Below are positions 46,187 through 50,236 of a stretch of 64,000 bases of DNA, one piece after another (position 1 is the first letter of the stretch; each line of letters starts with the position of its first letter). This DNA is from Microvirga vignae (GTDB lineage: Bacteria > Pseudomonadota > Alphaproteobacteria > Rhizobiales > Beijerinckiaceae): NCBI RefSeq assembly GCF_001017175.1, contig NZ_LCYG01000087.1, positions 484-64,483 of the forward strand, written 5' to 3'. The notes below the pieces were generated by a model. That model made no database searches, was not told the origin of the DNA, and was given only the letters and a program-made list of their open reading frames with translations. The position numbers and the translations under genes are program-made.

Positions 46187-47317
46187 TTAAGCCTTGCTCT
46201 GCCTGGGCTTTTCCCACCGAGTTATGTTTCTAATTTGCACTGCTTTGGCACCCCAGCGCTGATTCAGAAAATGGCGTGCAGGTTGTTCTATGAAGCGGAA
46301 GCTAAGCACGCCACAGACGAGAGCAATCCCCAGGACAACAGGCGTGGCAGCCAACCCATCATCGAACCGGAGTTTGATGAGAGAATCGATGAGCTTAAAT
46401 GGCTCCTGCCATAAGTAGACAGAATATGACAATTGGCCAAGTTTAAGAAGCGGCGAAGATTCTAGTATGCTTCGGGCAGGTCCTATTGCGCTGGGCAGAA
46501 GCGCGACTGCTGCAGCCAAGCACGCGGACCCAACACTGTACTTGACCGGATCAGGGACAACATTCACGTTCAGTGCCAGTCCAGTAAGGCCAAGAGCAAG
46601 AGGTGCCCAGCCTGGCGCGGAGCAGTTGCAGAGCCAGAGATAGGCGACTGCTCCCAGCAGAATGGATGCTCCTCGAACATCGCTACGCCAATAGACTTCA
46701 AAGTAATTTAATCCGGAAGCATATTGAACAAGGCCGTTCAGGGAAAACAGGAGAGCAATACCTAGCAAGGACGGCACTAGAGCCGTTTCCCCTTACGTGG
46801 AATCAGCTCTCTTCTTTGGTCTGCCGCATTTTCTGACGGCGAACCGGATCCACTTCGCCGGAAAATGCTCTAGGGGATAGTTAAAGCGACTGTGAAGAGC
46901 AGAGATAACCCCAAGGAGCGCATACATATGCCCCTCAATGCAGAGAGACCATATGTGACTGACCAGAGGATTATAGTGAAAATAAATAGTATAATAATTG
47001 CAAGTCATAGTTAACATGGAAATATAAGTCGCAAAATCGATACCTCTTCCAGTAAATACTGACGCCGCAAATATCGCAGAGGAAAATATGAATAAAGCGG
47101 GATATATACGCGCTATCCGCACCCGAAAAAATTCTATCACGTTTGTCTGACGGACGAACAATATCTCGGCCATTAGACGGCCGCTCAGAACGAAGAAAAA
47201 TTCCACTCCTGCTCTTCCGAGATTCATCCCGTCTCGGAACGCAAAATGTCCAATCAGAACTCCTAGTATGGCGCAGCCTCGCCATCCATCGAGGATTAAT
47301 ATGCGATTGCGGTCCAT
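46187..47317 (-). pseudogene. Acyltransferase family 3 (OafA-like) gene interrupted by a 93-bp palindromic element
   Basis: The frame starts at ATG 47317 (GGAG 6 bases before) with DRNRILILDGWRGCAILGVLIGHF, the usual start of membrane O-acyltransferases with the catalytic His. FFFVLSGRLMAEIL and VSHIWSLCIEGHMYALLG follow. It then runs into a repeat element that contributes an in-frame TAA (46793-46795), and resumes in the same frame with VPSLLGIALLFSLNGLV to the normal end LGQLSYSVYLWQEPF...FIEQPARHF at 46187. Removing 93 bases restores a continuous frame of about 345 residues. The 5' half is unusually AT-rich, pointing to horizontal acquisition. The downstream half could still be made from GTG 46777. 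Confidence 0.88.
46777..46873. mobile_element. RIME/REP-like element, copy 3, inserted with CTAG duplication
   Basis: The element is bounded by CTAGAGC (46777-46783) and GCTCTAG (46867-46873), so the 4-bp palindrome CTAG flanks both ends, as in a target-site duplication. Inside, GGCGAACCGGATCC and the complementary TTCGCCGG form the hairpin shared with copies 1 and 2. Net insertion is 93 bases. It encodes no protein and would need a transposase in trans. Confidence 0.8.
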
Positions 47318-47717: not shown

Positions 47718-48942
47718 CTAGCTTCGCCATCCTGCGGTGTTGCGTGAGACACAGCAGGATTCCGGAATATCGCCGCCATCGCGGCGTTTCATACCCTCCC
47801 AGATGCGACATTCGTTCGGTGAGAAGATCTCGCTGTTGATGCCAATCTGATACGCCTCCAACCGCGCCTTCAGGTCGCCGCATTCCAGGCCGGAAAGATC
47901 ATGTTCTATGGTGTAGGTGCGCCGTCCCTCATCCGACAGGAGTGCCAGGCGCAACTGCGCCTCAATGCGACCTGCCCACGGAGCGAAATAGTTCTGACGC
48001 AGCGCTCGGGATTCCTCTGTGAGGCTGCCGTAAGAGGCATTCTTGTCGAGACCAGCAACTGACAGAGGGACACCATAAACGCGGGCAACATCCTCCAAGC
48101 CTAGCACCCGCGCCTCGTAAAACTGCTGCTCGCGACCGGGAGCAGAGAGCGGATATGGTTTCAGTCCTGCTTCAAGCAGGAGCGCCTCGGGTCCTAACGT
48201 CATCTTTCTTAACCGAGTGCCGATCTGCTCTTTCAGGCGTCGGAACGCCTGATCTGCCATTTCTCCCGCGCCGAAGGTGGTTTCCGTCGTAAACACCGTG
48301 TCGGGAACGAAGCCGCGCGAGATCTGCGCCTCCGCTAATTCGCTCTGGGCAATGGCGAGGCCTACTGCGACCTGTGCCCGCGCCAGCGGCGACACGCCAA
48401 GCAAGCCATCTTTCGAGAAGCATCGCAGATGAATGATTTTATCCGGCAGGTATACCTCATGGCGTTCGGTGAGTGGGTCCGAATACCGATAGCGCATGCT
48501 CCCCGTGGTCAAGCACTCCACACCTACAGCCGCATAAGGCAAATAATGCAGTTCCTGCGCCGCCCGCGTCCATCCTAGACAATTCGCTCGTAGGCATTGC
48601 CGAACGTCGTGAGATCGCGCAGCAGCAGTTCGCTTAGTTCAAAGGATGACATCCGTCCATTGGCGGCATCGTTCAACAGGCGACGCAGCGGATGGCTCTC
48701 GACAGCCTCTCTGCCGCCGTCATCCTGCTTTCGTTAAACCACGCATGGCAGGCTCGCGAGCCCTTCCGAGATCAAGGCCGTGCAGCGGGCCGCAATGGCA
48801 AGGAAGAAACCGGATATTCGGGCGAAATAAAATGCGATGACTGCGCTCCGAATAGTAGCAGCGGTACGTAAGGCGGAAGGTAAGGATCAGGCAGCGCAGC
48901 CTCCCGTTTCTCGGCCCCGAACAGGCGAGCGAAAAAGCCCAC
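47718..48942 (-). pseudogene. HK97-type phage portal protein, frameshifted
   Basis: Starts at GTG 48942 (GFFARLFGAEKREAALPDP, a typical portal N-terminus). The frame then breaks several times: a segment near 48660-48780 reads LISEGLASLPCVV, then SHPLRRLLNDAANGRMSSFEL and LLLRDLTTFGNAYERIV with stops. From 48542 it is open again: SMRYRYSDPLTERHEVYLPD, SKDGLLGVSPLARAQVAVGL, GLEDVARVYGVPLSVAGLD. This order is that of HK97-family portals, the 12-mer head-tail channel. Missing or shifted segments make it non-functional. Confidence 0.85.
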
Positions 48943-48946
48943 GACG

Positions 48947-49225
48947 TCACTCCGTCAGACGGCGCTCGAGTTCAGCCTTTATGATCCCGTCGACCTCTTC
49001 CCGCTTTACAGGTCGGCCCGTGATCTGCTCCGCCAACCTGCCGCGCTGCAGCAAATGCCGATCTTCCCAATCCTCAGGAATAACAGGCATTTCCTGCGGC
49101 AGGATCTTGCCAGAGATCCGGCTGCGGGTCAGGAACAGTCACTGCCTCCACACCTTCCGGCAGTTTCGCCTCTTCGGCATGTCCCGCATCGATCCACTGC
49201 TGCGCCTCGGATGGCGAGAAGAGCA
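48947..49225 (-). pseudogene. Small phage gene remnant upstream of portal
   Basis: Two pieces in different frames: SPSEAQQWIDAGHAEEAKLPEGV (about 49225-49130), then ILPQEMPVIPEDWEDRHLLQ...KREEVDGIIKAELERRLTE (about 49105-48950) ending 5 bases before the portal start. Small helical proteins of this sort lie between terminase and portal genes in siphophages. I cannot name the family. The frameshift near 49110 marks it as decayed. Confidence 0.5.
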
Positions 49226-49351
49226 CCTGTCACCGGCAAAGTCATTGCGGAAGGGCTGCCTAACGAGAACGCGGACGAGTCCACTATGCTTCAACGCTTT
49301 CATGGGTTCTCTCCAAGTGTTGAAAGATACCTCTTCGCCAGGGACAGATTC

Positions 49352-50236
49352 ATGAAGCCGTGCAGCGTTGTGCCGAAACTGCGTATCATCAGTGACAATT
49401 TGTGGAGCGCTGCTGAAAGGATCAGGAGCGAGCGCGCCAAGATACCCGGCAAGCCCCGCGAGCTGTGGTCGCGCCATGACGGCTCTCCGACAGGTATGGT
49501 GACCTGCGGCAGTTGCGGCGGCCATATGATCATTGCCCAGCGGTCCCGGAACGGCGCAGGGCGGTTCAAATGCTCTGCTGCGCATTTCCATGATACTAGC
49601 CGACACACCAAGAGTTACGATGTGGCGCGGCTCGAATGGGCTGTCGTCGACGCTATAGACCTGCAGCTGACGGATCCCCGCACGACCCATGCGATTTGGC
49701 AGAAGTACCGCGAGGAACTACGGGAAGAGCAGCGCAGCGCCCGCTCGGAGCGACAGAACGTCCGAAAGCGCCTGAACGAGATTGAGGCCGCGCAGCTGAG
49801 GCTGGCCGCTGCTCTGGAGAAAGGTAGCATGCCCGAAGATATCCTGATCTCCTGGCTCCAGAATTTAGAGAAGGAGCGGGCCAGCCTGCGGGAACGGGAG
49901 CGCATCGCCAGCCAGGAAGAGGACCCGACCGATCTCTCGCTCAAGGCCATGGGTGCCTACCGGAAGCACCTGAGGAACCTGCATGAGAACCTTCAGGCTC
50001 GGCGGCATGATCCAGAGGTTCGGATGGCCTTCCGCAACGTGATCAAGAGCATCACGATCAACGAAACTTCCGCTCGGGCTCCGTACGGCTTTAAGATCAA
50101 CGGCAGGCTTGGCGCGCTGTTCGGACTGGAACTCTACCCAATTGGCCGACCTGTTTCCCAAGCCCTTGCTGAACAAGGGTTTTCCCGTGCGCTTGCGTGT
50201 TACGACAGTGCAGATACAGGAAAAGCCGGGTCGTAG
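49352..50236 (+). pseudogene. Large serine recombinase, C-terminal fragment
   Basis: The catalytic N-terminal domain is absent. The frame (open from 49055, family-like from about 49350) begins within the 'recombinase' domain: VVPKLRIISDNLWSAAERI. The zinc ribbon follows, MVTCGSCGGHMIIAQ ... FKCSAAHFHDT, then a long coiled coil (REELREEQRSARSERQNVRKRLNEIEAAQLRLAAAL) and the C-terminal DNA-binding part RMAFRNVIKSITINETSA. Intact members are about 500-600 residues and integrate phages or elements through a serine nucleophile, missing here. The 3' end overlaps the truncated cytochrome gene antisense, so that spot is a rearrangement junction. Confidence 0.82.

Follow-up and report, generated by a model that had tools for sequence, protein, structure and literature searches.

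A 91-bp repeat with ends resembling those of IS630-family elements interrupts an acyltransferase gene of Microvirga vignae

The split acyltransferase gene

The window, that is, the whole stretch of 64,000 nucleotides of Microvirga vignae that was analysed, carries on its minus strand two segments of a cell-surface acyltransferase gene (47317–46874 and 46777–46187) that are both open in a common frame. The 97 bp between them (46777–46873) are palindromic and show CTAG at each end, the order along the minus strand being 47317–46874, the repeat, and then 46777–46187. The following features were assigned to the region:

46187–46777, minus strand: 3' half of the acyltransferase gene, 196 codons
46777, no strand: outer C of the YTAR target, outside the element
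46778–46779, no strand: TA, left copy of the target duplication
46780–46870, plus strand: 91-bp MITE-like element of family A, with GAGC...GCTC ends
46780–46809, plus strand: hairpin 1 of the element, predicted
46793–46795, minus strand: in-frame TAA stop codon from the element, seen in the read-through translation
46826–46868, plus strand: hairpin 2 of the element, predicted
46871–46872, no strand: TA, right copy of the target duplication
46873, no strand: outer G of the YTAR target, outside the element
46874–47317, minus strand: 5' half of the acyltransferase gene (Acyl_transf_3), 148 codons

The ORF containing the 5' half matched positions 3–148 of the Pfam profile Acyl_transf_3 (E 2.6e-12), with no match in NCBIfam, and the 3' half matched positions 188–322 (E 2.9e-4; 20.4 bits, under the cut-off of 31), the two halves hitting consecutive parts of the profile. 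A tblastn search with the 5' half as query retrieved ten loci (L031–L040), and the 3' half matched the same Methylobacterium ORFs directly after the 5' half. Seven of these loci, from Methylobacterium (L031–L037) and with 51–57% identity across the 5' half, have one codon where the M. vignae gene has 32. This spacing was read directly in L034 and L037 from the parts matching the two halves, and in the other five the alignment had to be lengthened by no more than 13 residues to obtain it; L038–L040 were more distant and not clean enough, and were not counted. From the first matched residue, the Methylobacterium ORFs are 329–340 codons long, compared with 345 codons (148 + 1 + 196) in M. vignae once the insert is subtracted.

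The net insertion is 93 bp, equivalent to 31 codons, and its read-through translation is LEHFPAKWIRFAVRKCGRPKKRADST, ending in TAA. The initial annotation had described two halves that share a frame and flank a palindromic repeat, a 31-codon insert bringing its own TAA and a family-normal length of about 345 residues without it, all of which agree with these data; its proposal to look for the same 31 extra codons in orthologues was followed, and the seven Methylobacterium loci lack them. Because of the in-frame stop codon, the acyltransferase function was presumably lost. It is extremely improbable that the halves are two genes instead of one interrupted gene, or that the element is a tolerated in-frame insert of the protein. 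The frame is indeed preserved across the 31 codons, and palindromic inserts inside proteins are described for Rickettsia in the review PMC2229807, but here the insert carries a TAA in the frame of the gene, and its halves match consecutive stretches of a single ORF in seven Methylobacterium loci.

At the DNA level, neither a match to the flanks of the acyltransferase gene nor an empty allele of it was found among the matches listed for 36 congeners (seven candidates scored in each, nearly all of them occupied by the repeat), and no empty allele appeared among those listed for 13 other genomes (21 scored in each); the absence of such an allele from these genomes is to be taken as provisional. 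The G+C content of the two halves is 44% and 52%, against 62% for the window, and the gene may be an accessory, imported one. Next to it lie a phage portal fragment (Phage_portal, with portal_HK97 just under the cut-off; 47718–48542) and a recombinase fragment (Zn_ribbon_recom; 49055–50236), probably remains of mobile DNA in this stretch of low G+C.

Copies of the repeat and its target duplication

The segment 46777–46873 was the only match to CTAGAGC...GCTCTAG in the window, and none of 100 shuffles produced one. The terminal inverted repeats of the element, GAGCCGTTTCC and GAGCATTTTCC, are short and imperfect (9 of 11 positions alike); it carries no transposase gene, and no Rfam match at the gathering threshold was obtained in the window. 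As the initial annotation had expected from a genome search, the repeat, here called family A, is multicopy: the 6.47-Mb draft genome of the host showed 43 matches at E ≤ 1, some of them partial, of which 33 were below 1e-13 and the rest were partial or second matches within copies already counted. At E ≤ 1e-5, family A was present in 35 of 37 Microvirga genomes (host included) and, outside the genus, in 2 of 24 genomes from the same order. A search of 72,556 plasmid records, rhizobial plasmids included, recovered it in 12 records, all from Microvirga, Methylobacterium or Chelatococcus, and no match was found in phages.

The window copy and two further host copies have identical 91-bp cores, with 1.5-kb flanks that are otherwise unlike (E ≤ 1e-3). 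Because these three identical elements lie in otherwise unrelated DNA, family A seems to have moved recently, which upholds, with probability and not certainty, the earlier description of a recently mobile, non-autonomous MITE. The window copy is intragenic, and other copies lie beside or between ORFs, as called by a rough G+C rule. By the same rule, the boundary of the element creates the stop codon with which an adjacent ORF ends in six host copies (L012, L017, L018, L021, L022, L024), and in L022 ORFs from both sides terminate at the element.

From the fetched loci, 105 non-overlapping matches yielded 92 distinct full copies reaching both ends (32 from the host and 60 from other genomes). 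The core was 91 bp long in 64 of them, 90 bp in 18 and 88, 89 or 92 bp in the remainder, and the net insertion was a multiple of three in 67 of the 92. TA was present at the left end in 84 copies, at the right end in 72 and at both in 67, in an end register that was picked to favour GAGC and TA and in a set where many loci are the best match per genome. In these 67 copies, the bases outside the two TAs were C..G (38), T..G (13), C..A (10), T..A (2), C..T (2) and G..A (2), so that the outer left base was C or T in 65 and the outer right base G or A in 65.

Empty sites were sought by joining the flanks of occupied copies, after excluding those adjoining a second repeat, family B, and fetching the matches that spanned the junction. 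Three queries included 12, 12 and 23 sites, with L193, L017 and L019 in two queries each, giving 44 sites in total; L018, L023, L026 and L030, which have no clean TA ends and three of which belonged to the first batch, were dropped, leaving 40 sites for the final comparison with 87 fetched loci, three of them element-bearing. A relative was found for 22 of the 40 sites, and at 16 of these 22 the allele was clean, its flanks being separated by exactly 4 nt, which makes the occupied site about 93 bp longer. The closest clean allele was YTAR at nine of the 16: TTAA at L168, L232 and L061, TTAG at L170 and L182, CTAA at L233 and L235, and CTAG at L190 and L053. The other seven showed no TA, namely CCAG (L002 and L245), CAAG (L005), CTGA (L011), TCAA (L012 and L022) and GGCG (L048); in the case of L245, a nearer relative reads CTAA with a shift of 1 nt. 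In addition, L003 had one poor relative, with GAAG and no TA, under the threshold of the final comparison.

The initial annotation had taken the whole CTAG as the target-site duplication, which would leave an 89-bp element and a 4-bp duplication. CTAG is found at both ends of the window copy and in 38 of the 67 copies flanked by TA on either side, but the other 29 have no C..G outside, and three pairs of occupied and empty sites do not fit a 4-bp duplication. Two of them show CTAG..CTAA against an empty CTAA (L233/L246, 98% identical, and L235/L278, 87%), and the third, L168/L206, shows TTAG..CTAA against an empty TTAA. Because of such asymmetric sites, a CTAG duplication was rejected for the family and is highly improbable; the duplication in family A is the 2-bp TA within a YTAR target, whose outer bases vary among copies and recur in the empty alleles. 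Copies without CTAG flanks, which the initial annotation had listed as evidence against its reading, do exist, and they turn the duplication from CTAG into TA and leave the claim of mobility standing.

A different explanation is that the TA is borne by the element and replaces the target dinucleotide, with no true duplication. It looked likely after the first batch, in which none of 20 empty alleles showed TA (ten of the 20 at sites with decayed ends), and became unlikely once TA appeared at later sites. At the seven TA-less sites of the 16, a dinucleotide other than TA lies between the same flanks where the occupied allele is bounded by TA on either side, as seen for L022, L012, L002, L005 and L011 against their empty alleles (L141, L150–L152, L140, L142, L144). 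However, the empty allele already reads TA in YTAR at the other nine, and six of the seven different dinucleotides are one substitution from TA, as expected of later change in either lineage, which leaves a replacement very unlikely. As a yardstick, the flanks of six sites were compared between the host and G015, where TA was kept in 254 of 312 cases and YTAR in 26 of 34, a conservation higher than nine of 16, in relatives that were not matched for distance. The TA duplication within YTAR is directly visible at about half of the sites, and the rest would have to be explained by a mutation in one of the lineages or by somewhat relaxed targeting; the seven TA-less sites are only partly explained.

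The search of open-licence papers returned no description of family A, and none for Microvirga combined with insertion sequence and MITE. Family A is not previously described in the open-licence literature searched, and its class, the IS630-type MITE, is already known, for which reason the advance is modest.

A candidate source of the transposase

Tenzen and Ohtsubo (1991) reportedly, as the title has it, found that IS630 prefers TA in CTAG. Transposition of the IS630 family into TA with duplication of the TA has been obtained experimentally, and in vitro a normal TA duplication was present in 34 of 39 products of ISY100 (PMC2170065). The DDE_3 domain (PF13358) was detected in 39 of 48 Microvirga genomes, and IS ends were sought in 37 DDE_3 loci and 20 further stretches. 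A wider end scan of the IS630 loci revealed GAGC ends. In one group, with GAGC-type ends, obtained by a scan that demanded TA followed by GAG, GGG or AAG, 26 elements were placed (one copy twice), with sizes of 1024–1060 bp, [GA]AG next to TA at their ends and C..G outside the TA in 20 of the 26. The other group, of nine loci and 1118–1125 bp, has ends TTGA[TG]CCGG or nearly so, unlike those of the repeat, and the ends of loci outside the two groups were left undefined.

Within the GAGC-ended group, a type of 1041/1042 bp was represented by six copies in four other Microvirga genomes: L319 (G036), L325, L326 and L327 (G069), L328 (G009) and L329 (G065). L303 and L327 seem to be one and the same copy, and L331 (G036), a further candidate, yielded no ends. 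The ends of this type, GAGCCTTTTCCG and GAGCCATTTCCG, follow the pattern GAGCC[AT]TTTCCG inside CTAG, and they agree with those of the window element, GAGCATTTTCCG and GAGCCGTTTCCC, at 10–11 of 12 positions on the right and 10 of 12 on the left. The other types of the group reached at most 9 of 12 against the two ends of the window element; against the left end of the family consensus, L313 reached 10 of 12 and the 1041-bp type 9 of 12. Resting on eight bases beyond the common GAGC, the match is good without being conclusive. The largest frame of the 1041-bp type encodes IDET, ILDNLPPHKS and PPYSPDFNPIE, motifs that we take to be usual in IS630-type transposases.

Taken with the target data, these ends suggest, with a probability that we place at about 0.8, that a 91-bp non-autonomous MITE inserted at the TA of a CTAG (YTAR) within the acyltransferase gene, that the TA was duplicated, and that its ends are most likely recognised by an IS630-family transposase from elements of about 1041 bp like those of related Microvirga. 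In the proposed sequence of events, the MITE would have landed at the TA of its YTAR target, here CTAG, and duplication of the TA would have given the gene 93 bp, that is, 31 codons and a stop. The ends GAGCCGTTTCC and GAGCATTTTCC would be recognised by an IS630 (Tc1/mariner-like) transposase, supplied by IS630 elements of about 1041 bp of the kind that related Microvirga carry, and transfer by cut and paste would take place in trans. The likeness to the IS630 family lies in one Microvirga group with GAGC-type ends next to TA and C..G as the commonest outer bases, and the window element differs in being 91 bp instead of about 1041 bp and in having no transposase gene. Family A is short, does not code for a transposase, is multicopy, and has inverted ends, a target duplication at empty sites and a candidate partner IS in the genus, as a MITE does.

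The earlier suggestion of a transposase sharing the terminal sequence of the repeat was borne out in the genus, in those four other genomes, and not in the host, where none of the 10 DDE_3 hits in the draft genome was an IS630 element of this type. The matching host loci were 65–72% identical to the 1041-bp type over 375–573 bases, and the draft state of the genome leaves room for a missed copy. A search of the host for a resident IS with the 12-base end pattern TAGAGCMKTTTC returned no inward pair 0.6–3 kb apart, as judged by eye among the best 100 of 116 places, except for one involving a known copy (C81). At C129:3168, where an IS might have ended, the sequence looks like a decayed repeat copy.

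The same MITE could instead have been moved by a transposase of the IS5 family (IS427 group), for which a 2-bp duplication and a YTAR target are also possible. Eleven DUF4096 (PF13340) hits were detected in the host genome, ten of them above the cut-off; three loci (L097, L101, L102) have TA-flanked inverted ends with YTA..TAR-like targets, and GAGCC-like end sequences occur in L096 and L103. IS711 of Brucella is presumably an IS5-family element. Its reported target is YTAR, with a preference for Bru-RS repeats (PMC2266754), and in Paracoccus the duplications made by IS427-group elements are mostly of 2 bp, as far as PMC3281130 describes them. However, the only inward TAGAGC pair around the 11 host loci (L106, spaced by about 1.6 kb) has ends that are not alike past GAGC, and the ends GATCC.., GG[TC]CG.., CGGCC.., AGAGCCCGTCC.. 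and GAGCCTGTTTG.. of host-genome loci look less alike than the 1041-bp IS630 ends do, in a comparison made by eye and on no common score. On these ends, surveyed in the host genome, an IS5-family mover is held to be unlikely, and an IS630-family transposase remains the preferred candidate.

Hairpins, mosaics and known repeats

The predicted fold consists of two hairpins in both the consensus and the window copy, the latter with fewer pairs in hairpin 1. Covariation was evaluated on 48 distinct copies, all exactly 91 bp long, out of 70 taken, against 500 shuffles. Paired cells amounted to 1239 of 1344, compared with a shuffle mean of 1204, and cells changed on both sides to 41, compared with 14.4 (sd 2.8), values reached in none of the 500 shuffles; further pair types were 27 against 23.0, reached in six of the 500. 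The double changes fall mainly on two pairs, 5/26 in hairpin 1 and 54/82 in hairpin 2, in copies that are related, and are only suggestive of hairpin conservation.

Family B is a second palindromic repeat, with ends GAGCATCGTGCGG... and GAGCATCGGA..., seen as GCATCGTGCGGAAAAGTGG... at junctions. It directly abuts at least five host copies of family A (L010, L015, L020, L025 and L029, with junctions near locus position 1500–1600), with one TA (GA in L025) common to both repeats, which form RIME-like mosaics, and L004 lies a few bases from a family B repeat; adjacency was examined at these six loci and one other. One end of family B was compared with a 1052-bp IS630 type, which agrees with it at 11 of 12 positions in L322 and L332 and 10 of 12 in L321, and the host carries a relative of this type (L090) with about 80% identity along the entire length. 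With families A and B matched to two IS630 types, the genus lends itself to a direct test of cross-mobilisation. It is conceivable, though we regard it as doubtful, that families A and B are structured IS630-type MITEs, each with its own IS630 type, which share a GAGC-hairpin-linker-hairpin-GCTC layout, are joined into mosaics via shared TAs and have their hairpins kept by compensatory changes, being selected for structure and not only decaying transposon ends. If so, that structure would be selected for RNA processing, termination or transposition hairpins.

RIME, the Rhizobium-specific intergenic mosaic element, is about 100 bp long, with two palindromes and a mosaic layout. Family A resembles RIME of Sinorhizobium/Rhizobium and Bru-RS1/2 of Brucella as a short palindromic repeat of alphaproteobacteria, and the RIME layout is found in its two hairpins and in the host copies that abut family B. 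The RIME-like character proposed in the initial annotation holds as regards this layout, and the difference from RIME and Bru-RS lies in the occurrence of family A, confined in the plasmid records to the three genera named above. Bru-RS repeats measure 103–105 bp (PMC2267715), and IS insertion has been reported at YTAR and in these repeats (PMC2266754).

The closest parallel in organisation is RUP of Streptococcus pneumoniae with IS630-Spn1, a non-autonomous repeat of about 107 bp with many copies, insertion at TA and ends like those of an IS630-family element, as outlined in a review (PMC2229807). In the case of family A, in contrast, the host genome yielded no IS630 element whose ends match, and there are two separate hairpins. 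The two repeats presumably differ in sequence, as they do in host. Closer in taxonomy is MiniMdi3 of Methylobacterium extorquens, likened here by description only, which is also a MITE, in a related genus, but measures about 400 bp and is related to ISMdi3, according to the description in PMC2680597. The M. vignae locus represents a clean natural case in which a bacterial mini-transposon has split a gene; empty sites were recovered for the family, and the genus contains a candidate transposase source.

Finally, three copies (L008, L009 and L014) have a common left flank, TTTCCARACAYCCT, next to CTAG; all of them lie near a contig end, two of them no more than 20 bases from the contig start, as if the end of an IS stood beside the repeat.
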